The notes under the pieces are model-generated. The model ran no database searches. It saw only the letters and a program-made list of their open reading frames with translations, and was not told where the DNA came from. Of a stretch of 64,000 nucleotides of DNA, positions 11,935 through 61,237 are shown in pieces. The stretch is taken from the NCBI GenBank assembly GCA_019456225.1, contig VRUI01000017.1, forward strand, positions 1 to 64,000. The letters run 5' to 3'. The position numbers were made by a program, and so were the translations under genes. The stretch's first letter is position 1. Every line of letters begins with the position of its first letter. This DNA is from Planctomycetota bacterium. GTDB lineage: Bacteria > Planctomycetota > Phycisphaerae > Sedimentisphaerales > Anaerohalosphaeraceae.

Positions 11935-12585
11935 GTGTCATTGCTTGCCATGGTACTTCTGGTTATCACAGGAACGGTATACAGGTATGCAGCGGCTCAC
12001 TTCCACTCGATATCCGCAGAGCCGATTTACCTTAAGGTCCCTCTTAAAGAGTTTCCGTCTATAGTTGGTAACTGGACCGGCACCGACGTTATGATCTCAG
12101 AAACAATACTCAAAGTCGCTAACAATGACGACTATCTCATGCGAAACTACAAAAACAGCGTGACCGGTCAGTCGGTAACTCTATATATAGCTTTTTCGGC
12201 GAGACCTTCGACAATGCGGGGCCACAGGCCCGAGGTTTGTTATCCGTCAAACGGCTGGGTGCATGACAATTCCACCAAAGGCCAGGTCCCACTGGTATCC
12301 GGAGGCGCCTTGTCATGCCTGATACACAGATTTCATAAGCCTTCGCCAAAATCCGGCAACGCTATAGTTTTAAATTATTACATTCTTGACGGTCGGCCTG
12401 TCACGAATGAAGACGACTTCTCCGGACTGAAATACAGAATGGTAAATTATTCTCGAAAAGCTAAAAGATTTGTAACTCAGGTTCAGATCAGTTCTTCGAT
12501 GACAAATTCTGTTATTGCAGCCGCTTCGGAGTTTGGCGATCTAATATTGGAATTCTTCCAGAATACCGACGCCGCTAAGAAGTAA
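11935..12585 (+). CDS. EpsI family exosortase-associated protein
   Basis: Membrane-anchored periplasmic protein of about 216 residues with one N-terminal hydrophobic segment (LLAMVLLVITGTVYRY). It carries the EpsI signature region VTLYIAFSARPSTMRGHRPEVCYPSNGW, in which RPEVCYP.GW is strongly typical. EpsI domains accompany or are fused to exosortases in PEP-CTERM systems; here it is separate, about 4 kb upstream of the exosortase. The start is uncertain. GTG at 11,935 is the first standard start in frame and has no adjacent ribosome site. The frame is open back to 11,872, and AGGGGA sits at 11,898-11,903. The true N-terminus may be longer with a rare start codon. Confidence 0.85.
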   Translation: MSLLAMVLLVITGTVYRYAAAHFHSISAEPIYLKVPLKEFPSIVGNWTGTDVMISETILKVANNDDYLMRNYKNSVTGQSVTLYIAFSARPSTMRGHRPEVCYPSNGWVHDNSTKGQVPLVSGGALSCLIHRFHKPSPKSGNAIVLNYYILDGRPVTNEDDFSGLKYRMVNYSRKAKRFVTQVQISSSMTNSVIAAASEFGDLILEFFQNTDAAKK

Positions 12586-12740: not shown

Positions 12741-13691
12741 ATGGATGTATCAGTGATCATAGTAAACTGGAATACTCGCCAGCTGCTCTTCGATTGCCTC
12801 AAATCGCTGAAGGATACCACTAATAATATCATTTATGAAGTTATCATTGTTGATAATAATTCCTCGGATGATTCAGTGGAGATGGTCGCGGAACATTTCC
12901 CCGATGCAAATCTGATTGTTAATGATAAGAACCTGGGATTTGCAGCGGCAAATAACCAGGGCATTGAAATATCACAGGGGAGATACGTACTTCTCTTAAA
13001 TAGCGATACCGTTCTATACGAAGGTGCGATCGAGAAAAATGTCGTTTATGCCGACGAAAACCCGGACGCAGCGGTATTCGGCTGCCGCGTGATGAACTCC
13101 CTTGACGATGTCGATATGACCTGTTTTTGTTTTCCAACACTTCGCAGCTTATTTTTCAGCATAACCGGCCTTGAACATGCTTTCAAAATGAACCGCCTGT
13201 TTGGCGGTGAAAGGATGCGGTGGTGGCCGCGAGATACGTTCCGCAAGATCGATGTCGTAACGGGAGTGTACATGTTCACCAGAAAAAGAGCCATAGATGA
13301 AGTAGGGATGATGGATGATTCGTTCTTTTTTTACTACGAAGAAACAGACTGGTGCTATCGATTCGCAAAGGCAGGCTGGAAGAGGCTTTTCAATCCAGAA
13401 GCGGTTATCCTGCATGTCGGCGGCGGAGGACAAAGCTCATCGAATGCTGCCCTGAAAATGTTTGTCCAGCAGCAGAAAAGCTGTCTTATCTATTTCAAAA
13501 AACACAAAGGACCGTTAAAAACATTCATCGCCAGAATGCTGCTTGCCTTGGGTTATGCCTGCAGATCGATTTACTGGTCCTCGGTGATTGTCTGCAAAAA
13601 ACTAATCGCAGCCCAGACGAGCCATCACATTTCAAATAAGATGAAAACTCAAGCAGCAGTGAAATATCTGCTATTCGGCATCGAGCCATGA
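12741..13691 (+). CDS. Family 2 glycosyltransferase, rhamnosyltransferase-like
   Basis: GT-A glycosyltransferase of 316 residues. The N-terminal SVIIVNWNTRQLL, then VIIVDNNSSDDS and the motif LNSDTVL (DxD equivalent NSD), then FFFYYEETDWCYRFAKAGW with the catalytic E-D pair. This set is typical of WbbL/rhamnosyltransferase-like GT2 enzymes. C-terminal hydrophobic and basic residues suggest membrane association. AAGGGG precedes the ATG by 9 bases. It opens a run of co-directional genes with gaps of only a few bases, indicating an operon. The sugar donor is not deducible. Confidence 0.88.
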   Translation: MDVSVIIVNWNTRQLLFDCLKSLKDTTNNIIYEVIIVDNNSSDDSVEMVAEHFPDANLIVNDKNLGFAAANNQGIEISQGRYVLLLNSDTVLYEGAIEKNVVYADENPDAAVFGCRVMNSLDDVDMTCFCFPTLRSLFFSITGLEHAFKMNRLFGGERMRWWPRDTFRKIDVVTGVYMFTRKRAIDEVGMMDDSFFFYYEETDWCYRFAKAGWKRLFNPEAVILHVGGGGQSSSNAALKMFVQQQKSCLIYFKKHKGPLKTFIARMLLALGYACRSIYWSSVIVCKKLIAAQTSHHISNKMKTQAAVKYLLFGIEP

Positions 13692-14507: not shown

Positions 14508-15545
14508 ATGTCATATACGGTTAATATAGACAACTTTGACAGTTCTTATTGGCAGGAGCAGGCTAAGGAATTTGCTGATTATTCACTTTATCAGACATGG
14601 CCCTATCAGGAGAACCGCGCACAAATGGACAGTTGCAGTCTCAGCAGGGCCGTCGTAACAGATGAAAACGGCCAGGTCTGTCTGATGTGCCAGGTTCGTA
14701 TAAAGGAAGTTAAGGCTCTCGGTCTGAAAGTAGGGTATGTACAATGGGGGCCTCTGGTGAGAGGAAAAGACGATCAGCTAAAGTGTTCTGTGGATGCTTT
14801 AGTTGAGTTGAAAAATGCTTACGTTGAAAACATGGTAAATGTGCTGAGAGTCGTTCCGAATATGCCCGCCCATGCCGTTGGCTCGGAATTTTGCCAACTG
14901 CTGAAATCCGCCGGATTTAAACACAGCAGTAAATCGGCGCGATACAGGACTATAGCCATTAATTTTGATAATGGCGAGGAAGGCATAAGAAAAGGCATGT
15001 CCCAAAACTATCGAAGGGGACTTAAGAAAACAGAAAACTCGCAATTAGAGATTCGCCGTCAGGATGACGGTGAAGGATTTTCGGTCTTCAGTGAGATGTA
15101 TTCAGATTTGCAGCAAGCCAAGGGGTTTGGCGGCTTGCATATGGACGAATTCAGTAATCCGCAACAGATGCTCTCCGATGATGAGAAATTGAGTTTGCTG
15201 CTTCTATATAACGAAGACAGGCCCATTTCAGGCATTCTAAGCACTAACCTGGGAGACTCCGGTATGCTTTTACTCGCCGTTTCCAATGAAGAAGGCCGAA
15301 AACTGAAAGGCGCTTATCCTACCTGGTTTGCCAGCGTAATGCTCGCTCTTGAAAGTGGAAAAATACGTTATGATCTTGGCGGTATAGACCCGGAAAAGAA
15401 TCCCGGCGTTTACAATTTTAAATCGAGAATGGGCGGAGCGGAATTATATTATGTAGGGGCTTATGACGCATTCTCAAGCACAACAGTCAAAGCAATATGG
15501 GCAGTTTCAGATACTGTCAGAAACTTCCTAAAATTCCGGAGTTGA
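14508..15545 (+). CDS. FemAB-like (GNAT-fold) protein of exosortase loci
   Basis: Protein of 345 residues with the FemAB/BioF2-like acyltransferase fold. Evidence is the middle block SQNYRRGLKKTENSQLEIRR and the C-terminal block KGAYPTWFASVMLALESGK..YDLGGIDPEKNPGVYNFKSRMGG, which is strongly conserved in this family (FK..GG). FemAB-related proteins are known partners of PEP-CTERM systems (TIGR03019-type). The reaction is probably transfer of an aminoacyl group to a glycan or lipid-linked unit, but this is not established. The start at 14,508 has AAGGAG 7 bases upstream. An upstream in-frame ATG at 14,421 would overlap the deacetylase and is rejected. Confidence 0.85.
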   Translation: MSYTVNIDNFDSSYWQEQAKEFADYSLYQTWPYQENRAQMDSCSLSRAVVTDENGQVCLMCQVRIKEVKALGLKVGYVQWGPLVRGKDDQLKCSVDALVELKNAYVENMVNVLRVVPNMPAHAVGSEFCQLLKSAGFKHSSKSARYRTIAINFDNGEEGIRKGMSQNYRRGLKKTENSQLEIRRQDDGEGFSVFSEMYSDLQQAKGFGGLHMDEFSNPQQMLSDDEKLSLLLLYNEDRPISGILSTNLGDSGMLLLAVSNEEGRKLKGAYPTWFASVMLALESGKIRYDLGGIDPEKNPGVYNFKSRMGGAELYYVGAYDAFSSTTVKAIWAVSDTVRNFLKFRS

Positions 15546-15598
15546 TGTCTGATATTCGACCTGTCCGGAAAACAGTCGACCCCTCAAAGGAGAATGAG

Positions 15599-16063
15599 AT
15601 GGAGGAAAGAAATAAAAAAATATGTCTCGCCGCATCTGCAGGCGGACACCTTACGCAATTGCTGAAAATGGTTGAAAGCTGGGAGGGATACGAAGCTGTT
15701 TATGTATCCACATCGCAGGTAGCCGCTTCAAAACTCGCACAACTCGGAAAAACATATATCGTCGGCGAGTGTAACCGGCAGCATATTATCGAGTGTCTCA
15801 AAGTTTTCATGCGATGTATCTTTGTCGCAGTGAAAGAGCGTCCTGATTATGTCCTCAGCACCGGCGCGGCTCCCGGCTTTTTCGTCTGTATGACCGCAAA
15901 ACTATTCGGTGCCAGGATCATCTGGGTTGACAGCATAGCAAACGTAAAAAAGCTTTCAATGAGCGGAAGGCTTATCAGGCCCTTTGCCGACCTTTTCCTT
16001 ACACAGTGGCCCGAGCTGCAGGACAGTACCAAAGGTATCGAATACCAGGGAGGTATAATATGA
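15599..16063 (+). CDS. Alg14/PssD-like glycosyltransferase subunit
   Basis: Protein of 154 residues resembling Alg14/PssD/EpsE, the membrane-anchoring half of a two-part glycosyltransferase. It shows ICLAASAGGHLTQLLKM, then RPDYVLSTGAAPGFFVCMTAKLFGARIIWVDSIA, both typical. The start at 15,599 is preferred because AAAGGAG lies 6 bases upstream; a start at 15,545 would overlap the FemAB-like stop and has no ribosome site. Its stop overlaps the start of the Alg13-like partner (ATGA), so the two are translationally coupled. Together they probably add a hexose or uronic acid to the lipid-linked precursor. Confidence 0.85.
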   Translation: MEERNKKICLAASAGGHLTQLLKMVESWEGYEAVYVSTSQVAASKLAQLGKTYIVGECNRQHIIECLKVFMRCIFVAVKERPDYVLSTGAAPGFFVCMTAKLFGARIIWVDSIANVKKLSMSGRLIRPFADLFLTQWPELQDSTKGIEYQGGII

Positions 16064-16545
16064 TTTTTGTTACAGTCGGCACACTTTACCCTTTTGATCG
16101 TCTTGTCGGCGCAGTAGATGACGCTGTCGCAAACGGCTTAATAACAGAAGAGGTCTTCGCCCAGATCGGCGTAGGAGCACAAAAACCAAAGTACATTGAA
16201 AGCGTCGAATCGCTTGATAAACTGACTTTTGACAAGGTTATTACCGAATCTTCATGCATGATCAGCCATGCCGGAATGGGAAGCATACAAGCCGCACTCA
16301 GCAAGAATAAACCTTTGCTTGTCATGCCTCGCTTGTATAAGTACTCCGAGAACATTAATGATCACCAGGTCGCCACGGCTGAAAAATTTGAGGAACTTGG
16401 CCATCTGCTCGCGGTCTACCATCAGGACCAGATCCCGCAAAGGCTCGAAGATATCAAAACCTTCGTACCGGCTCAGCGATATACGCAGGTCGACAAGGTC
16501 GTTGAAAGAATCTCAGAATTTCTAAACTGTTTAGACAGCAAATAA
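16060..16545 (+). CDS. Alg13/PssE-like glycosyltransferase catalytic subunit
   Basis: Protein of 161 residues with the C-terminal half of a GT28/GT-B enzyme: MIFVTVGTLYPFDRLV, then ESSCMISHAGMGSIQAALSKNKPLLVMPR and NDHQVATAEKFEELGHL. The AGMGSI and E..NDHQ motifs belong to the nucleotide-sugar-binding half of Alg13/MurG enzymes. GGGAGG lies 7 bases before the ATG at 16,060, which overlaps the upstream stop. The separate catalytic and membrane subunits are usual for bacterial EPS loci such as PssDE. Confidence 0.87.
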   Translation: MIFVTVGTLYPFDRLVGAVDDAVANGLITEEVFAQIGVGAQKPKYIESVESLDKLTFDKVITESSCMISHAGMGSIQAALSKNKPLLVMPRLYKYSENINDHQVATAEKFEELGHLLAVYHQDQIPQRLEDIKTFVPAQRYTQVDKVVERISEFLNCLDSK

Positions 16546-16567: not shown

Positions 16568-18514
16568 TTGAAATCAAAAACTTCGATAATTGAGCGGTCA
16601 GCTGCCGCAATACTTGTTGCCGACATGGACTTCGGAAGATGTGCCGTTGCCTCTAAGCTGCCAAGAGCCTTATGGCCCGTCGGTGAAAAGACCGTGCTCC
16701 AGCGACTCGTCGACCATATTGCCGCTGAAGAGATAAAGAACATCGTGATATGTTCTGCCGTCGACCCTGTAATACTCGGAAAGTCTCTTGAAATACCGGA
16801 AGGCGTAGAGGTCAGATTTCATAAGGAACTTTTCCCGCGGGGTACTGCCGGAAGCATCTTTGACGCATGGCATATAGCCGCCGCAGAACTGCTGCTTGTT
16901 TTTCACGCCGAGATCGTCTCGGCGCCGGATATCGAAACCATTCTCTCGGCTCATCAGCAATCCCAGGCGGATATGACCATACTATTTAATCCAGTTTCCG
17001 ACGAAGATACACATCCATCCGAAACGGCTCAGATATACGTTTGTGAGCAAACTATAATTGAAGACATACCGCAAGATGGGTACTGCGACATAAAGGAAAC
17101 TCTCATTCCCAGACTTGTGCAAAATTCCAAGACGATCTTTGCCGTGGAAATGTCTTCCGGAGTCGGCAATTTCCGTAACTGGCAGCAATACCTTACAGCG
17201 GTTGCCTCTTACATTAAATTAAATGACACAAACCATATCGACGAAACTGCCCAAATGGAACAAGGAGTAAAAATAATCGGCCCTGTAGTTATTTGCCAAA
17301 ATGCCAGGATCGGATCGAATACGCTTATATTAGGCCCTGTAGTCATCGGCAAAGACGTTAAAATAGACGCTGATTGCGTAATATCCGAAAGCGTGATCTG
17401 GCAGCGATCCCGCATCGGCAAAAACTGCTTAATTCAGAGGTCCCTCCTCAACCAGCGATCGTATGTCGCACCGTCCAACACAGTCTCGCAAACTCTCCTT
17501 ACTCGCAAAGCAGCAAGGACATACAGACTTCCAGCCCGGCTGGATTCTGTTGCGGCAAATATAAGAAATAAGATGGAGGCTCCGATGAGCAGCCTGAAAG
17601 GCATATTTACAAGATCAAGCGGATATCTCCGCGGGAAAATACGCCGGGACACATCGTATATAAGGTGGATTACCGGGTCGCTTATCTTTATCGCATTCCT
17701 GTGGAGTTACTGGTCGAGCGTCTTTACGGACCTGTGGGCAATTTGGATGCAAAGCGACGAGTACTCCAGCGGCCTGCTCGTTCCACTGATTACCGCTTAC
17801 ATAATCTGGACAAGACGAAAGAAAATCGCCGCCTGCAAGATCACCCCGTCATTATGGGGTCTCGTACTCTTCGCCTTTGCGCAGGCATTCAGATTCTTCG
17901 GACTTTTCTTCATGTACGATTCCGCAGAGCGAATTTCAATGCTGATAACCGTTTCAGCATTGATACTTTTGTTGTTCGGATGGAAAATTCTTGCCAGACT
18001 CACGACTGTACTTCTCTTTCTGACGCTAATGATTCCTCTTCCTAACAGCGTCCACCGCCACCTGATGATCCCTCTTCAAAACTGGGCGACAACATCGGCG
18101 GTATATTGTCTCGAAACTATAGGATTCACAGTTTTCAGAGAGGGTAACGTAATTAATCTAAACGGCGTAACTGTCGCGGTCGCAGAGGCGTGTAACGGCC
18201 TTAGAATGATCACGTCATTTCTCGTAATAAGCTCAATGGTCGCATTGCTCGTTAAACGTGACCTTTTGCAGAAGCTAATAATAGTGGTATCAAGTATCCC
18301 AATAGCCTTACTTTGCAATACTATTCGATTGACAGCAACCTCGGTAGCCTTTACATACATCGATTCTGCAAGATGGGAGGGAGCCTTTCATGACTTTGGG
18401 GGACTGGCGATGATGCCTGTAGCGATTGCGATCATCGTCCTGGAACTTTGGGTACTCTCCTATATCTTTGTTCCGGCAGAAACGCTGCCCCAGCAGGTAA
18501 TAACCAGGAAATAA
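16568..18514 (+). CDS. Exosortase fused to a nucleotidyltransferase/hexapeptide-like module
   Basis: Protein of 648 residues. Residues about 340-640 form a multi-pass membrane exosortase with the full catalytic set: Cys542 in VAEACNGLRM, Arg587 in CNTIRLTA and His608 in FHDFGG. Exosortases cut PEP-CTERM proteins and pass them to a further carrier. Residues about 10-220 resemble an NDP-sugar pyrophosphorylase (SKLPRALWPVGEKTVLQRL, PRGTAGSIFDAW), and 230-310 are hexapeptide-like (IIGPVVICQNARIGS). The usual GGxGxRL nucleotide loop is missing and the metal-site Asp region reads FHAEI, so catalysis is unlikely. Translation uses a TTG at 16,568 with AAGGA 8 bases upstream; the ATG four bases earlier ends after nine codons. 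The fusion has no in-frame break. No EpsI domain is attached. Confidence 0.9.
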   Translation: MKSKTSIIERSAAAILVADMDFGRCAVASKLPRALWPVGEKTVLQRLVDHIAAEEIKNIVICSAVDPVILGKSLEIPEGVEVRFHKELFPRGTAGSIFDAWHIAAAELLLVFHAEIVSAPDIETILSAHQQSQADMTILFNPVSDEDTHPSETAQIYVCEQTIIEDIPQDGYCDIKETLIPRLVQNSKTIFAVEMSSGVGNFRNWQQYLTAVASYIKLNDTNHIDETAQMEQGVKIIGPVVICQNARIGSNTLILGPVVIGKDVKIDADCVISESVIWQRSRIGKNCLIQRSLLNQRSYVAPSNTVSQTLLTRKAARTYRLPARLDSVAANIRNKMEAPMSSLKGIFTRSSGYLRGKIRRDTSYIRWITGSLIFIAFLWSYWSSVFTDLWAIWMQSDEYSSGLLVPLITAYIIWTRRKKIAACKITPSLWGLVLFAFAQAFRFFGLFFMYDSAERISMLITVSALILLLFGWKILARLTTVLLFLTLMIPLPNSVHRHLMIPLQNWATTSAVYCLETIGFTVFREGNVINLNGVTVAVAEACNGLRMITSFLVISSMVALLVKRDLLQKLIIVVSSIPIALLCNTIRLTATSVAFTYIDSARWEGAFHDFGGLAMMPVAIAIIVLELWVLSYIFVPAETLPQQVITRK

Positions 18515-18590
18515 GAAAAAGAAGCTATCGATTTTGAAACCAGCCAACGATCAGCTTGAGCAGGATAATTTGATGTCAGGAGAAATTGAA

Positions 18591-20846
18591 ATGAACGATA
18601 TACAAAAAAACGAGGGATACCAACCTTATCAGGCCATCCAGTATGATGCTTTTGCCGAAGACGTCCAGGCTGTCTCTCATATAAAATTACTGTTTATCAT
18701 TGCAAGACGATGGCGAATGGTAATCGGTCTTTCACTCATCATCAGCATTGTCATTATCCCGTTTATCTGGCTCATTGGAAGGAACTACTTCGAAACTGAA
18801 TGTGCCGTAAGGGTTACTCCAATAATATCACCAATACTCTTCAGGGATTTCGAGTCAGATATTCCCATGCCGAATTATGAAAATTTTGTAAATACACAAG
18901 CCGCTTTAATGAGCAGTAATAATGTCCTTAACCGTGTCGCCGACGAGCTCAACGGCAAGGGTCTCGAATTCTTTGAAGGCGAAGATAACTATGCGATCGC
19001 CCTGAAACTCGCAATTAAAAGATCAAAAATCGTCGTAGAGCCCGTTATGAACACAGAGCTTGTCAGTTTAGGGATGAAAACGCCGAAACCCCGGCAAGCC
19101 GAACAGATACTCAACGCCTTCATCAGGGCCTATATGGGCGTCATCGCTTCAGACGAGGTTAGAGGAGGCGACCAGAAGCTTGCGATACTCGAAGAAAAAA
19201 GAAGACGTATGGAAGACCAGATAAGCAGACAACGAGAAGAAATTCGCCGCCTTGCCGAGGAATACGGTACCGCAACGCTTGGCGGACGATATGAGATGAT
19301 GCTCCAGCAGGTCGTTAGCCTTCAAAATGAAGCTACCACCTTAGAGATACAGCGAATGTCTTTAGAAGCAAACATCAAAATGAGCGAAGGACAGGTAAGT
19401 CAGCAACTCCGGCCCGATGAACTGTTGGGATTGAGAAACACTTTCGTAAACTCAGACCTTACGATGCAAACACTCTCAGCCGATCTTGCCGAACAGGAGA
19501 CTCTCGTTCTTGAATTAAAGCAGGTCATGGTCGCCGATAGCGACAGGCTTCTTCAGCAAGCGGCGGTGCTTACCTCATTGAAGGAGTCCATTAAACAGAG
19601 AGAAAGGGAAATGATCGAAAAGTTTAACACCGAGTTCCAGGCCGCCATGGTAATGAACAAGCAGTATAACCTTACCGATCTGAAATCACAGTTGGAAACT
19701 AATAAAGAATATGGAAAAAGAATGCTCGATACGCTTCAAAAAGCTAACCATGAAGCGATAAGAATGGGAAGAAAACAGCTTACTATAAATAACCTTCAGG
19801 AAAAACTCGCAAGAATGAAAGATATCGCCAATACCGTCAACCAGCGTATTGATCAATTGCAATTGGAACGAAAAAGGCCGGCAAGAGTTACAATAGCCTA
19901 CATGGCAAGCAGCGTTCCTGCCCAAAGCATGAAGATTAGATTTACTGTTATTGTTATTTTTGCTTCAATTTGCTTTTCATCGATGCTGATATTACTGCTC
20001 GAAAAGCTGGACACCTCCCTTCGCAGCCCCGAGGATTTAGCGTCATCGGCCGGCATAAATATAATAGGAACCACCACCAGTCCCGAGAACATCGACAGTG
20101 CAATGCTTACACGCCTCCTTGCCGAAGACTACCGGACAATACGCGCAAACATCGGATTGATAAAACCAAACACCAGTAAAAAGATCATAGTCGTAACAAG
20201 TCCCGGCATCGGTGACGGTAAGACTACCTTTGCCGTTAACCTGGCGACAAGTTTCGCCAAATCAGGAAAAAAAACACTCCTTATTGACGGCGATCTCAGA
20301 AAGCCGGATATCGCGGCAACTTTAAATCTGCCCGGAAACCTTCGCGGCCTGCAGGACCTGCTCGAAGGCGCAGAACCGCAAAGAGCCGTTTACACGATGC
20401 CATTGACCGGAATCGATATCCTTGCCTCTGACAGAAGCAATACTGCAAACGCCCTGGATATTCTGGCCAGGCCGGACACGGCAAAAACTATCAGAAGCAT
20501 TTGCACCCATTATGACCACGTCATCATCGACACACCACCGCTTCTTGCTTTTACTGACGCCATGCTCTGGGCAAAGATCGCCGACGGCATAATCCTTACC
20601 AGTTTTGTCGATCGAACCTGCAGTTCCGCATTTAAAGAAGCTGTCGAACGGATCGGCCAGATAGATACAACCCTTATCGGGGCCGTCGTAAATAACGTCC
20701 AGAACAACGATTCCTACCGTTACAGCGGTTTTGGTTACGATTGCGGCGAAGAATACGGCATAGTAGGTTGGCCATTGAAAGAAGACAAGGATGCGGCATT
20801 ACTGCTGGCCACACAACCTCAGCAAGATACCGACCCAAAAACATAA
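18591..20846 (+). CDS. Wzz-BY-kinase: chain-length determinant with tyrosine autokinase
   Basis: Protein of about 751 residues. It has an N-terminal Wzz domain with the first membrane segment (MVIGLSLIISIVIIPFIWLI), a long periplasmic coiled-coil region, a second membrane segment (FTVIVIFASICFSSMLILL) and a cytoplasmic BY-kinase. Kinase motifs are Walker A TSPGIGDGKTTFAVNLA, Walker A' LLIDGDLRKPD and Walker B HVIIDTPPL. The C-terminal tail is tyrosine-bearing (SYRYSGFGYDCGEEYG), the autophosphorylation cluster. It sets polymer length and regulates assembly. The start at 18,591 has AGGAG 8 bases upstream; 18,573 (AGGA, 7 bases) and a TTG at 18,534 are alternatives. It follows the exosortase closely. 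Confidence 0.9.
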   Translation: MNDIQKNEGYQPYQAIQYDAFAEDVQAVSHIKLLFIIARRWRMVIGLSLIISIVIIPFIWLIGRNYFETECAVRVTPIISPILFRDFESDIPMPNYENFVNTQAALMSSNNVLNRVADELNGKGLEFFEGEDNYAIALKLAIKRSKIVVEPVMNTELVSLGMKTPKPRQAEQILNAFIRAYMGVIASDEVRGGDQKLAILEEKRRRMEDQISRQREEIRRLAEEYGTATLGGRYEMMLQQVVSLQNEATTLEIQRMSLEANIKMSEGQVSQQLRPDELLGLRNTFVNSDLTMQTLSADLAEQETLVLELKQVMVADSDRLLQQAAVLTSLKESIKQREREMIEKFNTEFQAAMVMNKQYNLTDLKSQLETNKEYGKRMLDTLQKANHEAIRMGRKQLTINNLQEKLARMKDIANTVNQRIDQLQLERKRPARVTIAYMASSVPAQSMKIRFTVIVIFASICFSSMLILLLEKLDTSLRSPEDLASSAGINIIGTTTSPENIDSAMLTRLLAEDYRTIRANIGLIKPNTSKKIIVVTSPGIGDGKTTFAVNLATSFAKSGKKTLLIDGDLRKPDIAATLNLPGNLRGLQDLLEGAEPQRAVYTMPLTGIDILASDRSNTANALDILARPDTAKTIRSICTHYDHVIIDTPPLLAFTDAMLWAKIADGIILTSFVDRTCSSAFKEAVERIGQIDTTLIGAVVNNVQNNDSYRYSGFGYDCGEEYGIVGWPLKEDKDAALLLATQPQQDTDPKT

Positions 20847-20887: not shown

Positions 20888-22519
20888 ATGCAAATAACCA
20901 TAATACATTCTCAAAAAGATCACTCCGCAAATGACTGCAGATTTTTACGGTTTGCGATTTCAAACCGCAACACTGCCTCTGTCGTCCTGAAAGGCATCTC
21001 TGCGTCCGACAAGGTTACCAAAGGCCCCAGGTTCGTAGCAATGCCCGCCCAATGGTATGCGCCGGATCTTGCCGGTCAAACAAAGATCATTTCATACGAT
21101 GATAATACGATAGAACTTCCGCTTGACGGTTATAATGAAAAGTGGATCGTCTTGATAAATGGAAGGTATGCAGCAAACACGGATATTCAGATGCTCGCCG
21201 ACATTGCGGATTCTAGTGATGCAGATATGCTCGTCGTCAATGTCGATATAAACCTCGCCGCTTATTGCGAAAAACCCCGGATAACTCCATCCAGTCACGT
21301 GGTAGGCTTTAGCAGATGGTACTCAGATTCAATTACTCCTGCTCCGATACCCAAAAAATGGCCGCACTACCTATTCGTTAGAACCGACGTGCTTGGTTCT
21401 CTGCTCTCAAATAACCATTTGCCGTTAAGCTTTGAAACCCTGCTTCACAGATCCCGGAAAAATGCGGTCAAAATAACAAGCCTTTCTGTCGGCGGAACCT
21501 TTCTTGACCTCGATACGCCGGATGGACTTCTCAAATACACAACTTCAGTGCTCAGCAGAATAAATTGCCCGACCGGAATTTCCGGCAAAAACACAAAATT
21601 CTATGGAAACGTTTTGACTGGAGAAAACGTAACTTTCGGTGAAAATGTAAAGATTATTGGTCCCGCGATCATAGAAGATAATGTCTCTGTCCAGGACGAT
21701 GCGATTATAAATAATTCCATAATCGCATCGGGCCAGACCCTTCAAGCCGGCCAGGTCGTCACTAATACCATACACATCGAAAACTCATGCCGGAATATGC
21801 AATCGGCGCCAATCACATTGCCGGCCTCAAAAAAACCGGACTTTATATTCTCAGGTAAACTCGATCGAACAAAAAAATATAGCGCATTCAGAAGATGGCC
21901 CTTGTTTTCATATCCTCGTATCGTTAAGAGGTTTATTGATCTGACAGGTTCGGCCTTTATTTTGACGCTTTTGGCACCGGTCTTTTTAGTAATTGCGATA
22001 CTGATAAAAATAACCTCGCGCGGACCGGTTTTTTACAAAGCTGTCAGACAGGGCAAATACGGCAGGCCAATAAAATGCCTCAAATTCAGAACAATGGTCG
22101 CCGGCGCCGAAACGATGCAGGAAAAACTAAGAGTCGTAAACGAAGTCGACGGGCCGCAGTTCAAAATCGTTCACGATCCGCGAATAAGCAGCGTAGGACG
22201 ATTTCTCCGGGATACATGTCTCGATGAGACTCCGCAGTTTATAAACGTACTCCTGGGCCAAATGTCAATAGTCGGCCCCAGACCGTCACCGGAGAACGAA
22301 AATTCACAATGTCCCTGGTGGCGCGACGCAAGGCTGTCGGTAAGACCGGGAATTACCGGCCTCTGGCAAATTTCCAGAACACGCTGCCCATCGAGAGATT
22401 TCCAGGAATGGGTCTATTACGATACGGAATACGTAAGGAAAATTACGCTGAAGGCGGACCTGTGCATATGTTTTAAAACGGTCATGAAACTAATAAACGA
22501 TTTCATAGACCAATTCTAA
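20888..22519 (+). CDS. Priming glycosyltransferase fused to a nucleotidyltransferase-like module
   Basis: Protein of 543 residues. The C-terminal part (about 335-543) is a bacterial sugar transferase that links the first sugar phosphate to undecaprenyl phosphate. It has a membrane hairpin (FILTLLAPVFLVIAILIKI), then GPVFYKAVRQGKYGRPIKCLKFRTM, LRDTCLDETPQFINVLLGQMSIVGPRP and RPGITGLWQISRT. The N-terminal part resembles an NDP-sugar nucleotidyltransferase without its nucleotide loop (KWIVLINGRYAANTDIQMLA, and GGTFLDLDTPDGLLKY near the end of that domain), followed by hexapeptide rungs (IIGPAIIEDNVSVQDDAII). The layout parallels the exosortase fusion three genes back. It is the last of the tightly packed genes before a gap. 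Confidence 0.9.
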   Translation: MQITIIHSQKDHSANDCRFLRFAISNRNTASVVLKGISASDKVTKGPRFVAMPAQWYAPDLAGQTKIISYDDNTIELPLDGYNEKWIVLINGRYAANTDIQMLADIADSSDADMLVVNVDINLAAYCEKPRITPSSHVVGFSRWYSDSITPAPIPKKWPHYLFVRTDVLGSLLSNNHLPLSFETLLHRSRKNAVKITSLSVGGTFLDLDTPDGLLKYTTSVLSRINCPTGISGKNTKFYGNVLTGENVTFGENVKIIGPAIIEDNVSVQDDAIINNSIIASGQTLQAGQVVTNTIHIENSCRNMQSAPITLPASKKPDFIFSGKLDRTKKYSAFRRWPLFSYPRIVKRFIDLTGSAFILTLLAPVFLVIAILIKITSRGPVFYKAVRQGKYGRPIKCLKFRTMVAGAETMQEKLRVVNEVDGPQFKIVHDPRISSVGRFLRDTCLDETPQFINVLLGQMSIVGPRPSPENENSQCPWWRDARLSVRPGITGLWQISRTRCPSRDFQEWVYYDTEYVRKITLKADLCICFKTVMKLINDFIDQF

Positions 22520-23009
22520 TAATAATGTAACCGTTTATGGTGAAAGAACCACGAATGGACACTAATAAACTTAGGGCGGCCAAGCCGCAACCAAAGCTTA
22601 AAAAAATGAATATCCAATAACGAACAAGGAATATCGAATAACGAAATAAAAACAGCGGTGCTTGTTTTGTAGGGTGCCGCTTGCAACTTTTGTAACTTTG
22701 GCTTGTTTTGCTTTTTTGCCACAGAGGAAAAAGAGGACCACAGAGGGATAAGAGAGAAATAGTTGGGCCAGTTTTAATATCGACATAAATATTTGTGAGA
22801 TAACCGGTTATAAGTTTTAGTTTCTAAAAAACGTGCATAAAAAACAAGAAGTTGAAAGATTGTAGTACTAATAAAAAAACGATGATAAATGGACGAATGT
22901 GCAGTGTACCCAATATCAGTTTGTATTCATCCGCCGCGGCGGATTGGTGACTCACCAGATGTGAACGGTCACAAAATAATCAATAATAAATTATAAATTG
23001 GAAACTATC
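22520..23009. other. Intergenic region holding a long degenerate repeat
   Basis: No supported gene. It contains the extended repeat at 22,604-22,760, a short GC hairpin near 22,930 (CCGCCGCGGCGG) and AT-rich sequence before the TPR gene. The promoter of the TPR gene is probably here but was not identified. Confidence 0.5.
22604..22760 (+). repeat. Extended dispersed repeat, copy A
   Basis: It starts AATATCCAATAACGAACAAG, includes ACAGCGGTGCTTG and CTTGCAACTTTTGTAACT, and ends CCACAGAGGAAAAAGAGG. An inverted, roughly three-quarters identical copy lies at 62,334-62,505. The AATATC/AACGAA head is repeated again at 43,853-43,900 and 44,046-44,096. One frame encodes KQRCL-C---LATFV--LPQRK-R in both long copies, but neither has a start codon. 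Confidence 0.7.
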
Positions 23010-26000
23010 ATGACTCGAACAAAAATCAACTTAAAACCTTTGATTGTTATATTTATTTCAATAGTAACACTGGCGATGACTACTCTTTGCCTTAGGCAGT
23101 GGAATCGAAACCACAGGGCGGGGCTTGGGCTTCGCGACGGCACTGAGGCATTTGAAAACAAGCAGTGGCAGCTCGCCGCCGAAAACCTCGGCAAATATAT
23201 CGTAATATTCCCGGACGACGTGTCTGCGATAATGAAATATGCCGAGGCGCAGATCAATATTACCCCAATGAACGCAGGCACGATCAATCAGGCTCTAAAC
23301 TCATACAGAAAGGTACTAAGGATCGACCCGACTCACAAAAAGGCAGTACTGAGCCTTATGAATATATACATGCACCTCATGAAAATTCCCGCTGAAGCCG
23401 AACTGGTAGCAACAGAATTCCTGAAACGGCGCCAGGACTCTAAAGTGCGTCGCTCACTTGCCATGTCATACTACCAACAGCGTAAATTCGCAGAAGCTCG
23501 CCAGGAACTAATGCGTATTATAAAGGACGATCCTGCAGAGGTTACCGCATACGCACTCCTTGCGCGGCTTGTCGAAAAACGCCCACAGGAATTTACCGAG
23601 ACTCCGCAAAAACTCTACGACCAGGCTGTAACCGGTTGTCCTGCCAATCCCCTGGCATATATTGTACGGGGAGAATACTACTTAAGGCAGTCAAATAAAT
23701 CAGACGCCGTAAATGACTTTATTAAAGCGGAAAAACTATCCCTCTCTGATATTACTGTCAGGCTCAGGCTCGCCGAAGCTTTCTTTAATTCTTCAATGCC
23801 GGAAAAAACCAGGACACATCTTCGCCGAGCCGCGTCCTCTGATCCGGACAATATCAGAATATGGCAGTTGTGGGCAAAACTTGCATTACGCAATAGTTCA
23901 CCCCGGGAAATGGCAGACGTCGCTCGCAGGGGCTGTCAGTCACTTACCGCCGATCTACTTCTCTTTCTTCCAATAGCTGCCGAGTTGTATATCAGATGCG
24001 ATGACTTTGACAATGCTTCACAGGCCATCGCTCAGCTTAAAAAATCTGAAGATTCCGCCGCAAAAGTAGCCTACCTGCAGGGACTTATGGCAAGGAGGCA
24101 GGGCGATACGTTAAAGGCAATTAAGCTGTGGTATAAGGCGGCAAAAGCGGGCCTTACTTACGATCAGCTTGATATTTCTTTAGCATCGGCTCTTGCAGGC
24201 ACAGGCGACATAAATTCGGCTATTGTGCGACTGAGAAATTATACAACGCGTGAAAACTACCTCCCACACGCAAACCTTATGCTTGCCGAATTCCTCGCCC
24301 AGACCGGCAAATACGCCCAAGCTGCCGAATTTACTAATAAATATTTGCAAGAACACCCGGAAAGTCTCAAGGCCCAATTGATGCTGTTAGGCTTTCAAAG
24401 CCGGATAAACTCGCAATATGCCGAAAAGCCGTCAATGATCCCCATGGAAAAGCTCCAGGAGAATCTTTTAAATAAAATGCAAAGCTCAATGATTTCTCTT
24501 ACTGAGTCGATTGCTGCAATAGGCGTTTCCATTGAAAACCAAAACCCGGATTTTGCCAGGAAAATGATCGACAGCTTAATAAAACAGCATCCGTCAAACC
24601 AGGACGTTATGCTCGCGGAGCTCGAAGTTCTCACCGCCGAAAACGATACGGAAACCGCAATGACAAAACTCCGTCAGTTACCCGAAAAATTCCCGAATTC
24701 CGTCAAGGTTATGCGATATTTTACCGCCTTTCATATCCAACAAAACGATCTGGGCGCTTGCGAAGATGTGTTGTCGAAATGCCGTCTCACTGCCGTCTCA
24801 CCTGATGATGCCAGGGCAATAAAAATGCTCCTTACCGAAGTTTATGAAAGATCGCGGCAGTACGATAAAGCCTGGGCGATATTGAAGTCGCTGCAGAAAA
24901 AAGATCCTTCAGATATAACGATAAACAGGTGGCTCATCGCCATTGCACCAGGCGCCGAAATGACCGGTCAGACCCAGAACCTGATCGATAAGATCAAGGC
25001 CGCGGAAGGCCCCAGGGGCTGGCAGTGGAGATTCGAACAGGCAAAGCTGTGGTTTAAGTCGGACAGCTTCAAAAAACACTACGAACAGATCATCAGCTAT
25101 CTTATGGAAAACCTCAAAAACAACCCGGAAGATCAGCCAAGCCGCCTCCTCGTCGCGGCAACTTACGAAAAATCAGGAAATATCCAGCTTGCATCTTCTA
25201 CATACAAACAGGCACTTATTTATTCGCCGGATGATATTGAGATCACCCTTGCCGCCGTCGCGGCAATGCACAAAGCCGGCGAGTACAACCTTGCAGAACA
25301 AATCATTGGCAAAGCAAGATCTACCGGAATGACAGACAAAAGGCTTTCCGCGCTAGAGCTGAACAGTCACATCAGAAGGGGAAATTATTCATCCGCCGGC
25401 TTAATAGCCCGGAAACTTTCAGCAGACGACCCTGATAATATGAAATTAAAGCTATCGCTGGCCATGTTGAACATACGTGATAAAAAATTCGATCAGGCAG
25501 GTATCGCCCTTAGCGAGTTAAAAAAAGACAACCCCGATTCAGTTGCGGTAACCGCGGCTCTCGTAGATCTCAATATTCACCTCAGTGCACCTGGCAAGGC
25601 GATTGCCGATTGCAACGAACTTCTAAATAAAGTCTCAAACGCAAATGCATATACGCTTCGCGGAAGAACTTACATGCGGATTCGAAATCTTTCAAATGCC
25701 GCCGAAGACCTTCAAACGGCCCTCCATATGAATCCCGAGGCAATACCAACTATGATACTTCTGGCACGTACTTATCAGTCTCAAGGTCTATCGGACAAAG
25801 CAGTTCGTCTCATTGCAAATGCACTCGAAAAGGCACCGGATAATTTCGAAGCACATAAAACGGCAGCGTTGATCTATCTTACTTCCGAAGATCCGGATGT
25901 CACCGCAAAAACAACAAAAGTGATGGAAAAGGCATTGGAAATAAACCCTGATGACATCGAAATGCTCATGCTAAAAGCCAGGGTACTCTTTGCCAAAGGT

Positions 26001-27182
26001 ACAAAAACTGCTAACCGCAAGGCCGTAAAGATACTACGGAAAGCAACCCGCCTCGACCCAACGTATCCGCAGGTATGGGCGATCTTAGCCGAAATAAATC
26101 TCGTGAGAAAAGATTACATTATGGCCATGGATAACATTATGACAGGACTTTCATACCTTCCGGGCAACAGACTGCTCTATCTCTCCAAGGCGAGAATAGA
26201 AGCTGCTCAAAACCCGCAACTTGCCGTAGAAACTCTTACCCGCCTGCGAGAAAAGTATCCCGAAGACACTGACATCGCCATATATCTCGCATACATGTAC
26301 ATAAATGCCGGCCAAAGCTCGGCGGCAGTAAAATTAATTCGTTCTCTTTCCGCAGATAATAGCAGCACCGGCAACCAGAAAATACAAGCAGCCCTCGCCG
26401 AAGCCCTCTACGCAGACGGCAAAATTACCGAGTCGATGAAAATTATAAATTCTCTATATAAGTCATACCCCGACTCAAAAACACCATTTCTGGCCTATGT
26501 CAGAATACTTAAATCACACAATAAATGGAACGAATTATCAGAAGTCGTACTAAAATGGTACCGCGACCACGATAATAACTCCAGGGTAGCTATGGCGATA
26601 ATTCAGCAAATACTCAATTATGAAAATCCGCCATCAGTCGATTGCTCTGAAGTCATTCTTAATGGGATCATTGATGAAGATTACGGCAATGTCGACGCTC
26701 TCAATGCCCTCGGAGTACTGCTGCATATTACAGGCCGATCCGATCAGGCACTCAAGTATTACGAAAAGGTGCTCATGATCGACCCTGAAAGAATCGTCGC
26801 CATCAACAACATGGCATGGATACTTTGCGAAGAGCAAAGCAAATACGACCAGGCCCTTGAACTTACAAGCACCGGACTGTCAAAATATCCCGATTACGCC
26901 GATCTTATAGACACCGCAGGCGTCGCAAGATATCGATTGGGGCAGTATGAAAAATCTATCAGCGAATTCAAAAAATGCATCCTGCTTAGAAAAAATACAG
27001 AATCCGCGGCAGCAAGCGTACATTTCCACATCGCAAGATCGCTTGAAAAACTCGGCCGATTCGCCGAAGCCAATGAACACCTTAAAAAGGCCATAGAAAT
27101 AAACAAATTAAATGGCGGGCTGTCCTCCGGACAACTCACCGAAGTCAATATGTTATTGTCCGAAATTTCTGAGAGGTATTAA
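23010..27182 (+). CDS. Giant TPR protein, PrsT-like, of the exosortase locus
   Basis: Protein of about 1,390 residues. After a basic start there is one membrane segment (PLIVIFISIVTLAMTTLCL), then almost the whole length is tandem tetratricopeptide repeats (for example ALNSYRKVLRIDPTHKKAVL and ALKYYEKVLMIDPERIVAINN). Size and context match PrsT, the TPR protein of PEP-CTERM systems, thought to act as a periplasmic scaffold in EPS or protein sorting. PrsT proteins are often lipoproteins. Here no convincing lipobox is seen, so an uncleaved anchor is more likely. ATG at 23,010 is preferred to the TTG at 22,998. It is followed at once by the LuxR-type gene. Confidence 0.85.
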   Translation: MTRTKINLKPLIVIFISIVTLAMTTLCLRQWNRNHRAGLGLRDGTEAFENKQWQLAAENLGKYIVIFPDDVSAIMKYAEAQINITPMNAGTINQALNSYRKVLRIDPTHKKAVLSLMNIYMHLMKIPAEAELVATEFLKRRQDSKVRRSLAMSYYQQRKFAEARQELMRIIKDDPAEVTAYALLARLVEKRPQEFTETPQKLYDQAVTGCPANPLAYIVRGEYYLRQSNKSDAVNDFIKAEKLSLSDITVRLRLAEAFFNSSMPEKTRTHLRRAASSDPDNIRIWQLWAKLALRNSSPREMADVARRGCQSLTADLLLFLPIAAELYIRCDDFDNASQAIAQLKKSEDSAAKVAYLQGLMARRQGDTLKAIKLWYKAAKAGLTYDQLDISLASALAGTGDINSAIVRLRNYTTRENYLPHANLMLAEFLAQTGKYAQAAEFTNKYLQEHPESLKAQLMLLGFQSRINSQYAEKPSMIPMEKLQENLLNKMQSSMISLTESIAAIGVSIENQNPDFARKMIDSLIKQHPSNQDVMLAELEVLTAENDTETAMTKLRQLPEKFPNSVKVMRYFTAFHIQQNDLGACEDVLSKCRLTAVSPDDARAIKMLLTEVYERSRQYDKAWAILKSLQKKDPSDITINRWLIAIAPGAEMTGQTQNLIDKIKAAEGPRGWQWRFEQAKLWFKSDSFKKHYEQIISYLMENLKNNPEDQPSRLLVAATYEKSGNIQLASSTYKQALIYSPDDIEITLAAVAAMHKAGEYNLAEQIIGKARSTGMTDKRLSALELNSHIRRGNYSSAGLIARKLSADDPDNMKLKLSLAMLNIRDKKFDQAGIALSELKKDNPDSVAVTAALVDLNIHLSAPGKAIADCNELLNKVSNANAYTLRGRTYMRIRNLSNAAEDLQTALHMNPEAIPTMILLARTYQSQGLSDKAVRLIANALEKAPDNFEAHKTAALIYLTSEDPDVTAKTTKVMEKALEINPDDIEMLMLKARVLFAKGTKTANRKAVKILRKATRLDPTYPQVWAILAEINLVRKDYIMAMDNIMTGLSYLPGNRLLYLSKARIEAAQNPQLAVETLTRLREKYPEDTDIAIYLAYMYINAGQSSAAVKLIRSLSADNSSTGNQKIQAALAEALYADGKITESMKIINSLYKSYPDSKTPFLAYVRILKSHNKWNELSEVVLKWYRDHDNNSRVAMAIIQQILNYENPPSVDCSEVILNGIIDEDYGNVDALNALGVLLHITGRSDQALKYYEKVLMIDPERIVAINNMAWILCEEQSKYDQALELTSTGLSKYPDYADLIDTAGVARYRLGQYEKSISEFKKCILLRKNTESAAASVHFHIARSLEKLGRFAEANEHLKKAIEINKLNGGLSSGQLTEVNMLLSEISERY

Positions 27183-27183
27183 A

Positions 27184-27585
27184 ATGTCGATTACAATGAA
27201 CAGTCAAAGTGTAACAGATGCCGATAGTGCATCCGAATTCTCATCCGTTACGTTACTGAATGAGCAGCAATGGAGCTATCTGCAGACAAAATACAATATG
27301 ACAAGAAGAGAAATGCAGATCGCGAAGCTGGTATGCAGAGGCCTCGGTAACGAGGATATTGCACAGTCTTTAACAATCAGGCATGGAACTGTCAAAACCC
27401 ACATACGGAATCTTTACAGAAAACTGTGGGTACACAACAAAATATCAATGCTGCTTAGATTCATACAGGATGCTTCGGTCTTTTTCAGCAATCCAGGCAG
27501 TCCGCTACAGATGCTGATAGATACAAAGCAGACAAATGAAGCTGAGCAGGAAAATGAAACACAATGCCAGGAAGCGGTTCTATAA
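27184..27585 (+). CDS. LuxR-type helix-turn-helix regulator
   Basis: Protein of 133 residues with a C-terminal LuxR/GerE helix-turn-helix (MTRREMQIAKLVCRGLGNEDIA, then HGTVKTHIRNLYRKLWVHNK). There is no receiver or ligand domain, only a short Ser-rich N-terminus. GAGG lies 7 bases before the ATG, which is one base after the TPR stop, so the two genes are probably cotranscribed. A likely role is local control of this exosortase/EPS locus, inferred from position. Signal input is unknown. It may pair with an unlinked sensor or act by abundance. Confidence 0.85.
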   Translation: MSITMNSQSVTDADSASEFSSVTLLNEQQWSYLQTKYNMTRREMQIAKLVCRGLGNEDIAQSLTIRHGTVKTHIRNLYRKLWVHNKISMLLRFIQDASVFFSNPGSPLQMLIDTKQTNEAEQENETQCQEAVL

Positions 27586-28155: not shown

Positions 28156-28572
28156 ATGAAAAAGTTAATTATAATTCTGTTATTGACAACATTTTGCAGT
28201 ACTTCTATGGCAGGTATTTCAGGCAAATCATTTGATTCCTTGTATGAAGATCTCTTGGAGTTATTGAATTTGAATCGAGATGATGATGAACCTGTACAGG
28301 AGGTCGATGTCAAAAACGATAGTTTAGATGACTTGTACACTTCCCCGGACCAAAGCTATACAACGCCGGTTAATACTGACACAGAAACCTATTTGGATGA
28401 TTCAACGCTGCCTGGATCTGACGTGATTCCAGAAGGCGTAATCGATCCTGACCAGGGTGGAATTAACAACCCTGATTCGCCTGTATTAACTACTCCTGAA
28501 CCATGTTCGATCATACTGTCCAGCCTGGGCCTTGGGATACTCGGATATCTCAAGAGACGCCGGGCGATCTAG
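28156..28572 (+). CDS. Small acidic PEP-CTERM protein, likely exosortase substrate
   Basis: Protein of 138 residues. It has a signal peptide (MKKLIIILLLTTFCSTSMAG), an acidic Asp/Glu/Pro/Thr-rich middle (RDDDEPVQEVDVKNDSLDD) and a C-terminal sorting signal of PEP at residues 114-116, a hydrophobic segment (CSIILSSLGLGILGYL) and a basic end (KRRRAI). This tripartite tail defines PEP-CTERM proteins handled by exosortase. AGGGG precedes the ATG by 7 bases. It is the only PEP-CTERM protein found in this window and lies within 10 kb of the exosortase, so it is a natural candidate substrate. The middle part is unlike any domain I recognise. Confidence 0.88.
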   Translation: MKKLIIILLLTTFCSTSMAGISGKSFDSLYEDLLELLNLNRDDDEPVQEVDVKNDSLDDLYTSPDQSYTTPVNTDTETYLDDSTLPGSDVIPEGVIDPDQGGINNPDSPVLTTPEPCSIILSSLGLGILGYLKRRRAI

Positions 28573-32092: not shown

Positions 32093-34015
32093 CTAGCCAT
32101 GACGCATCCGAATCTCTTTATTAAAAAGCCTGAGCTGAACATCAATTGCCTCGATCGCCCACTCGATATAGTGAAGCTGGTGAGCCGGCTTGCCGTTCCG
32201 CTCTGTCATCAGCCCATGCTGAATGATCTTCAAAAATCGGCTCCTCGTATGCCTGCTGATTTCCGTAGGATTGTCTGACCACTCTTTTAGCTCTTCATAC
32301 TGATTCCTCAACCGCTTGCTGGAGTTCAACTGCAGCGGAGTCAGGTAATCGGCCGGGTTATACGCGATCTGCAAACCCTTCAGTGCCATAATGATCGGCT
32401 CATAATTCGCCCTGGCGTCAAGCCTCATAAACTTATACTGCTGCGTATACGTCGTCGCGTGAGAGGGCGATCTTTCCGCGATTCCATCACTGCGAAGCTG
32501 TGACATACGCTTGCTCGAACGCGCAAAGACAAGCTCTTCGCCATATTTATCCTGACGAATCTCATCGTGCCCCATACGAGAAACCCACAGCCTTCCGGAC
32601 CTGTGCAGTTCGGTACCGCCGCCAAGGGCAAACAAACATTTAACAATACTAAGCCGCAGCATCCGCTGGCTTTGTCTCTGACGCTTTTGCAGCTGGAACG
32701 ACAGATGCAAACTATGCGGCTTAACCGGGTAAAACACGCATATCTCATGAATAAGCTGGTTCAAAAGCCACGGATCAGCAGTAGCCGGTTTAGACAGCTC
32801 ACCCATAATATTCAGCCTGCCGGGTGCAAACTCCAGAAAACCTTTACGCCGCGATATCTTGCTGCTCAATCCGTGATCGTCGATATAACCGCCAAGCTTC
32901 CACGTTAAAATATCAAGCCGAAAATCCTCAAAGTACTTAAATGCGTCAAATACATGATCGATCGATCCGCTATCTTTTCTGATCGTATTGAACCCAAGGT
33001 TACTAAGCTCAAGCTCGGCGCCCATCGGCATGATACCGGTCTGCCGGTTAACCCGAACCCGCTCAAGTTCGCTCCGCATCAAACGCGAATCGAATACACT
33101 GTCAGAGGCACTAACGGCATACTTAACATAGTCAACAAGGTCGTATTGACCGTCGCAGGGCATAGTATCGATACACTGCTTAAGTATCATCTCGATCGCC
33201 GAAACATTAGCGTTCATCATCCTCAGCGCAATAAGCATACTAACGCACCGCGTAAAATACCGCGGAGACGTCCCAAGCCTTTCAACCTCAAAACGGTACC
33301 GATCCTGGATCGTCTGTTCGATCTGATTGAACATCACCTGCTTAACCATCAGCCCGATATAATTGGAAATATACGGAACTGCTTCCGGTTCGTCGAACAG
33401 ATGCTTAATAGTCGGATAGGGCCGGTCAAGCTCATGCTCAAGGTAATAGTCGCTTATTGTCCCGCTGTCAAGATAACTGACAACAAGGTCACGTTCTGTC
33501 GTACCAAGAAGCTCACGCCTTGCTCTGCGTTCGGTATCGGCATCCTGAGATTCCTCACCGGGACGCGTATCATCTTTCAGGAATTTCTCGATACGCTTGC
33601 GAAGCCAAAGCTCATGGATAAGATTGACATGAAATCGGTCGCCAAACCGCCGGCGCATCGATCTGTGACTAACAAGGTACGCCTCCGCATCAACCTCACC
33701 GTCGGCCGTAGACACCGTAACGGTCTCACGCTCATAGAGTTTACCTTCATAACGGTCGATCTCCGCAAATGCCTCAAAAGGTACGTCATAGATAATCATA
33801 CCCTCAAGCTTGGCAACGGCCTTCTTTACCGCATAATAATAAACATTGTCAGGGCTAACCTTACGATACCCCGCAAGAAGTGCAAGCTCAGCCCTAAGAA
33901 GTTTCTCATGATTAAGCGCAGGATTCAGACCAAAGCTAAGCCCGCAAACAGACTTAAAAATTGAAGGATCACGCATGGACCCATAAACAAACATATTAAA
34001 AGTTTTTTCTTCCAT
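32093..34015 (-). CDS. GGCT-like N-terminus fused to an amidoligase-like region
   Basis: Protein of 640 residues. Residues 1-115 look like a gamma-glutamylcyclotransferase/AIG2 domain: FVYGSMRDP at 9-17 (the substrate-binding YGxL-type loop), LEGMIIYDV around the acidic residue Glu71 and IDRYEG at 86-91. A charged linker follows. From about 330 onward, MGAELELSNLGF resembles the first motif of amidoligases (GxExE, the glutamine-synthetase-like fold), and FLEFAPGRLN and KPHSLHLSFQLQ could be later strands with metal or nucleotide ligands. Association of the two families is known in peptide-amide metabolism. The amidoligase assignment is tentative. A TCGCC-TTC-GGCGA hairpin stands just before the ATG. 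Confidence 0.6.
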   Translation of the reverse strand: MEEKTFNMFVYGSMRDPSIFKSVCGLSFGLNPALNHEKLLRAELALLAGYRKVSPDNVYYYAVKKAVAKLEGMIIYDVPFEAFAEIDRYEGKLYERETVTVSTADGEVDAEAYLVSHRSMRRRFGDRFHVNLIHELWLRKRIEKFLKDDTRPGEESQDADTERRARRELLGTTERDLVVSYLDSGTISDYYLEHELDRPYPTIKHLFDEPEAVPYISNYIGLMVKQVMFNQIEQTIQDRYRFEVERLGTSPRYFTRCVSMLIALRMMNANVSAIEMILKQCIDTMPCDGQYDLVDYVKYAVSASDSVFDSRLMRSELERVRVNRQTGIMPMGAELELSNLGFNTIRKDSGSIDHVFDAFKYFEDFRLDILTWKLGGYIDDHGLSSKISRRKGFLEFAPGRLNIMGELSKPATADPWLLNQLIHEICVFYPVKPHSLHLSFQLQKRQRQSQRMLRLSIVKCLFALGGGTELHRSGRLWVSRMGHDEIRQDKYGEELVFARSSKRMSQLRSDGIAERSPSHATTYTQQYKFMRLDARANYEPIIMALKGLQIAYNPADYLTPLQLNSSKRLRNQYEELKEWSDNPTEISRHTRSRFLKIIQHGLMTERNGKPAHQLHYIEWAIEAIDVQLRLFNKEIRMRHG

Positions 34016-61200: not shown

Positions 61201-61237
61201 AATTCGATATTCCTTAGTTGCCTGCAATATACTTTCA

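Follow-up and report, generated by a model that had tools for sequence, protein, structure and literature searches.

The window analysed here, a stretch of 64,000 nucleotides from a Planctomycetota bacterium (contig VRUI01000017.1 of assembly GCA_019456225.1), raises the question of why an exosortase should be joined, in one reading frame, to a domain resembling a sugar nucleotidyltransferase. The link between exosortases and exopolysaccharide (EPS) has so far been mainly one of gene neighbourhood and, to our knowledge, it is not settled what exosortases attach proteins to. Exosortases were described as strongly associated with EPS gene context, their fusion partners being EpsI and CAAX-protease-like domains (Haft 2006, PMC1569441), and no published report of an exosortase-nucleotidyltransferase fusion was found in the open-access literature. 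The gene and its parts are as follows.

16568-18514, + strand: fusion gene, pseudo-nucleotidyltransferase, left-handed beta-helix and exosortase (648 aa; open frame, same single-frame architecture in many relatives)
16595-17212, + strand: pseudo-nucleotidyltransferase domain, residues 10-215 (Pfam NTP_transferase 6e-7, motif counts, predicted fold, Foldseek GMPP/AGPase)
17240-17497, + strand: left-handed beta-helix (hexapeptide) domain, residues 225-310 (LbH_EIF2B 3.3e-12, Hexapep 5.3e-7, strand pattern of the model)
17498-17662, + strand: poorly conserved linker, residues 311-365 (lowest conservation, 0.22; low model confidence)
17663-18487, + strand: exosortase domain, residues 366-640, with Cys542/Arg587/His608 (Exosortase_EpsH 1.8e-54, TIGR02602, triad in 54/54)

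The frame runs uninterrupted from a TTG at 16568, with AAGGA 8 bases on its 5' side, to a stop at 18514, and the Pfam domains follow along it in the order NTP_transferase (residues 30-147), Hexapep/LbH_EIF2B (225-309) and Exosortase_EpsH (375-630), so that all three families named for a domain search in the original prediction were matched. The C-terminal half scored 185 bits against Exosortase_EpsH (PF09721, cutoff 25.7) and 144.5 bits against TIGR02602 (NCBIfam, cutoff 105.6), which places it among the exosortases, and the three triad residues were invariant in all of the 54 distinct fused proteins taken for alignment. The claim that a single frame joins a complete exosortase to the N-terminal half was thereby borne out. 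None of the named subtypes with curated cutoffs (XrtA, XrtB, XrtD, XrtV, XrtW and others) was reached, the best scores being 176.5 of 400 bits for XrtD and 167.8 of 425 bits for XrtW. Given that the genome holds 15 PEP-CTERM matches above cutoff, of which one, borderline, lies in the window beside the cassette (28156-28572), the exosortase has probable substrates in its own genome. In its domain, Cys-Arg-His triad, EPS gene context, accompanying PrsT-like TPR and EpsI genes and genomic PEP-CTERM proteins it resembles the EpsH family (PF09721/TIGR02602) at large; it differs from the fusions in PMC1569441 in carrying an N-terminal pseudo-nucleotidyltransferase with a beta-helix.

The N-terminal half scored 29.7 bits against NTP_transferase (PF00483, cutoff 21.2), consistent with membership of that fold, and in the predicted model most of residues 30-215 were confident, with loop 20-29 and the linker poor. 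The best Foldseek matches of the module were GMPP structures, including GMPPA/GMPPB, with E values from 1.8e-11 (the top match, 7x8k) to 1e-9; AGPase and HddC were also matched. A sequence search likewise retrieved GMPP enzymes, the GMPPA/GMPPB complex being among the closest solved relatives. Residues 1-320 were thus predicted to have a nucleotidyltransferase fold, and the structural outcome that would have spoken against the original prediction did not occur. With about 85 residues the helix is short, of the size found in GMPP/AGPase-type proteins, which made a hexapeptide acyltransferase unlikely.

The GGxGxRL loop and the metal-site Asp, which had been described as lost, were indeed missing, with LVADMDFGRC in the place of the loop (family consensus LAGGRDFGRC) and Glu115 at the first metal position. 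The motif LAGGxGTRLxPLTxxxPKPLxPV of the true enzymes encoded in the same genome aligned in one register to the family consensus LAGGRDFGRCPLASRLPTALWPV, and in the fusion the GxGxRL loop with its catalytic Arg was absent, DFGRC occurring instead with the Arg displaced by one residue. Among the 62 homologues used for N-terminal motif counts this Arg, one residue past the canonical position, was retained in 47, which indicated a changed loop and not a plain loss of it; the f19 clade was without even the shifted Arg. The catalytic Lys of PKP was present in none of the 62 (the window protein has Arg33 there), the first metal position was Asp in 1/62 and the second in 0/62. From the metal position to GIY there were 42 residues in the window protein versus 75 in the GalU-like protein of its own genome, a spacing that leaves no room for an EKP-bearing segment; the T137-I156 stretch was about 20 residues in most homologues, and the EKP segment is apparently missing in nearly all 62. 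An active pyrophosphorylase was rejected on these motif counts.

Other parts of the pocket were kept. Gly92 and Gly95 of the GTAG loop were invariant in 54/54 fused proteins, and Asp174 was kept in 54, Lys176 in 53 and Glu177 in 52 of the same 54, so that GTAG and GYxDIKExLIP were nearly invariant in a domain where many other positions vary freely. In most pairs the module had diverged more quickly than the exosortase, but the module's dN/dS of 0.06-0.38 (eight pairs) indicated that it is kept by selection. Judged from these sequences, residues 1-320 are a pseudoenzyme related to GDP-mannose pyrophosphorylase, complete with the oligomerising beta-helix. The module shares the fold and the short left-handed beta-helix with GDP-mannose pyrophosphorylase and GMPPA, and with GMPPA also the loss of catalysis and the retention of pocket motifs; it differs from both in its attachment to a membrane exosortase, its altered P-loop and its apparently missing EKP segment, and in that no catalytic partner was found linked to the fusion.

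The genes around the fusion that bear on its role are the following.

11935-12585, + strand: EpsI-type exosortase partner (DUF3485), a separate gene (PF11984 1.8e-21; TIGR02914 over cutoff)
15497-16545, + strand: PssD and PssE glycosyltransferase pair, just upstream and recurrent there (NF041549 and NF041548, each slightly below cutoff)
18534-20846, + strand: Wzc-type BY-kinase/chain-length protein, the next gene after a 19-base gap (TIGR01007 over cutoff)
20888-22519, + strand: EPS-initiating sugar transferase (PHPT), with a degenerate homologue of the module in its N-terminal ~300 residues (Bac_transf, hhalign)
22998-27182, + strand: PrsT-like TPR protein (TIGR02917 6.3e-82, 276 bits, below the cutoff of 312)
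27112-27585, + strand: LuxR-type DNA-binding protein, a recurrent neighbour (GerE 5.9e-15)
28156-28572, + strand: probable exosortase substrate with a C-terminal PEP-CTERM signal (PF07589 at 28489-28563, borderline cutoff)

The usual order of the cassette was PssD/E, fusion, Wzc kinase, PHPT and PrsT-like TPR protein, and in the window PssE ends 22 bases before the fusion. The Wzc-type gene lay just 3' of the fusion in all tabulated fused loci except L083, and after EpsI in family f19, while PHPT followed Wzc in nearly all fused loci with enough sequence (L095 was the exception). The PrsT-like protein commonly came after PHPT, often with the LuxR-type gene. In five loci (L084, L085, L086, L092 and L109) the module stood by itself before Wzc and PHPT with no directly adjacent exosortase, which indicated that its constant partners are EPS genes and that the exosortase is an optional addition.

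PHPT, with 543 residues, belongs by its catalytic domain to Bac_transf (PF02397, 5.2e-58 over residues 347-536), and its N-terminus matched LbH_EIF2B and Hexapep in Pfam. This second module (20888-21900) was absent from the original prediction, as was the paralogous split locus described below. When PHPT N-termini were compared with the fusion module by hhalign the score was 99.9% over 332 columns, with 99.7% for the beta-helix alone and 75% (E 2.6e-5) for the nucleotidyltransferase parts alone. The overall score is dominated by the beta-helix; we regard homology as strong for the helix and as likely for the two modules as a whole, the PHPT copy being the more degenerate. In family f19 the PHPT N-terminus matched other PHPT N-termini and gave no match to the module, so a contact through the beta-helix cannot be universal. 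The PHPT model had a mean pLDDT of 38 and was used only to note beta-helix strands. PHPT resembles the large monotopic phosphoglycosyl transferases WbaP and WcaJ in having a non-catalytic domain before the sugar transferase domain, but that domain is here a degenerate nucleotidyltransferase with a beta-helix, and the PF13727 accessory domain gave no Pfam match on PHPT up to E = 1.

From the architecture, its conservation, the loss of catalytic residues, the two-module homology and the gene order, all read directly from the sequences, we infer a complex, a ligand and a coupling of sorting to EPS. The reading that we prefer, with a probability of roughly 0.5, is that the exosortase is fused to a non-catalytic cytoplasmic EPS-initiation module and is held in, or controlled by, that assembly. 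The module would belong to the cytoplasmic face of the EPS-initiation machinery; given that it carries no evident signal peptide it should be cytoplasmic, where PHPT should also act. The exosortase would be held in or governed by the assembly most likely through contact between the related modules, the retained pocket would probably bind a nucleotide sugar or nucleotide as part of this hold or control, and PEP-CTERM proteins would then be sorted where and when polysaccharide is started. The accessory domain of WbaP is non-catalytic and senses nucleotides (PMC10942596), and non-catalytic GMPPA binds GDP-mannose and regulates GMPPB (PMC11228364); these precedents favour a non-catalytic EPS-coupling module.

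Both a sensor of EPS precursors and a device that positions the exosortase had been proposed originally. Positioning at the EPS machinery has the better genomic support, since a homologous module sits on PHPT of the same cassette and the module also occurs alone before Wzc and PHPT, whereas sugar-nucleotide sensing would have only the retained pocket motifs and the precedents of WbaP and GMPPA to draw on. We therefore favour tethering over sensing as the role of the module. Four observations count against the preferred reading: the pocket loop (residues 20-29) has low confidence in the model, which makes an open pocket putative, the two-module homology is strong mainly in the beta-helix, the PHPT N-terminus of family f19 does not match the module, and disruption of EpsH in Methylobacillus left methanolan production unaffected (PMC1569441), so that EPS does not in general depend on an exosortase. 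A more elaborate version, in which the related dead modules on exosortase and PHPT form one membrane complex gated by nucleotide sugar, and cleavage of PEP-CTERM proteins, perhaps with their attachment to the nascent lipid-linked glycan, is confined to the sites where this glycan is begun, seems doubtful to us.

Here the exosortase carries, as a conserved covalent attachment, a module that the EPS-initiating transferase also has; the genomes thereby give direct evidence that the two are functionally connected, with concrete residues and partners for testing. The same finding suggests that Planctomycetota have a family of pseudoenzymes that stand at the first step of polysaccharide synthesis, and protein sorting and slime-polysaccharide synthesis may be physically or metabolically coupled in many planctomycetes.

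The alternative that survives best is that the module is purely a scaffold for oligomerisation or docking, with its pocket motifs kept for folding and nothing sensed. The examined catalytic groups are gone, beta-helix domains of such proteins commonly oligomerise, and gene order together with the shared module would explain tethering without any ligand; the near-invariance of GTAG and GYxDIKExLIP, however, exceeds the apparent need of a purely structural role, and we regard the scaffold as possible at well below even odds. An action in trans, in which the module would place or inhibit precursor synthesis at the membrane through a genuine sugar nucleotidyltransferase, much as GMPPA regulates GMPPB, would fit the GMPPA/GMPPB complex among its closest solved relatives and the genuine-looking nucleotidyltransferases with intact loops encoded in the genome. 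Such a role is unlikely given that the genes conserved beside the fusion encode Wzc and PHPT and that the contig of the window has no NTP_transferase match besides the fusion itself. It is very unlikely that the module has stayed enzymatically active through a modified active site, in which the conserved DFGR loop replaces GxGTR: the loop has a strong consensus of its own and mostly keeps the displaced Arg, but the catalytic Lys is lost throughout, the metal-binding Asp residues almost without exception and the EKP segment apparently too, and in the f19 clade the displaced Arg has also gone.

By our own count, about 52 of the 397 genomes in the class sample carry the fusion in a single frame (47 with one match and 5 with two matches in one frame), and many other loci of this sample end at contig borders. 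In the phylum sample three genomes beyond the class (family f57) have it as well. Besides the genome of the window, about 18 of 59 relatives had a near-full-length match in one frame (own count), and the named fusion-bearing records were Phycisphaerae and Sedimentisphaerales assemblies or unclassified planctomycetes. Recurrence in so many genomes ruled out chance or assembly error as the origin of the fusion. The proposed search for the same architecture in other Planctomycetes thus succeeded, and the opposite case, separate halves elsewhere and a unique error here, came out negative.

Separate genes for module (455 aa) and exosortase (328 aa) were present in a second cassette of the same genome (contig 50, C50, locus L008), and likewise as adjacent genes in L046. 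In both trees these split copies were nested among the fused ones, suggesting that the split is secondary. Three further loci (L029, L031 and L105) look unfused in the exosortase tree merely through the ends of their contigs. As the trees have no outgroup, they are compatible with one event or with two behind the f19 fusion and the main one. A fusion in decay, or one produced only by annotation, as the split versions and the faster divergence of the module in most pairs might suggest, is scarcely credible and already largely refuted, given that one frame is kept throughout the order and the class and outside them, that dN/dS lies well below 1 and that the split copies are nested.

A third and more distant exosortase of the same genome (L009:1844-8763, contig 75) is accompanied by EpsI-like and giant TPR genes of its own, with no pseudo-nucleotidyltransferase at that locus. 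The 343-aa protein L010, also from this genome and a weak match to the module, resembles LpxD and was set aside.

On contig 50 an array of 33 heptamers, 234 bases long, separates the split module and exosortase genes, and related arrays occur within the gene for the module and at the end of the exosortase gene (TTTGCTN-type, L008:14277-14510, 15163-15386 and 13168-13305). A strict six-copy heptamer pattern was found in this genome only at these arrays and on contig 109. Sulfate-activation genes of CysN/CysC type and CysD-like (L008:15842-18724) immediately precede the split module gene, hinting at a sulfated polysaccharide. In the window, a CysN-like protein is encoded at 59353-61227, its C-terminal APS-kinase match spanning only about half of that domain. 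The 640-residue protein at 32093-34015 has a gamma-glutamyl cyclotransferase-like N-terminus and a long C-terminal part with no Pfam match, and the 1288-residue protein at 51490-55356 has HEAT repeats, PD40 repeats, one CxxCH motif and a match to the middle domain of hydrazine synthase alpha (9.6e-18).
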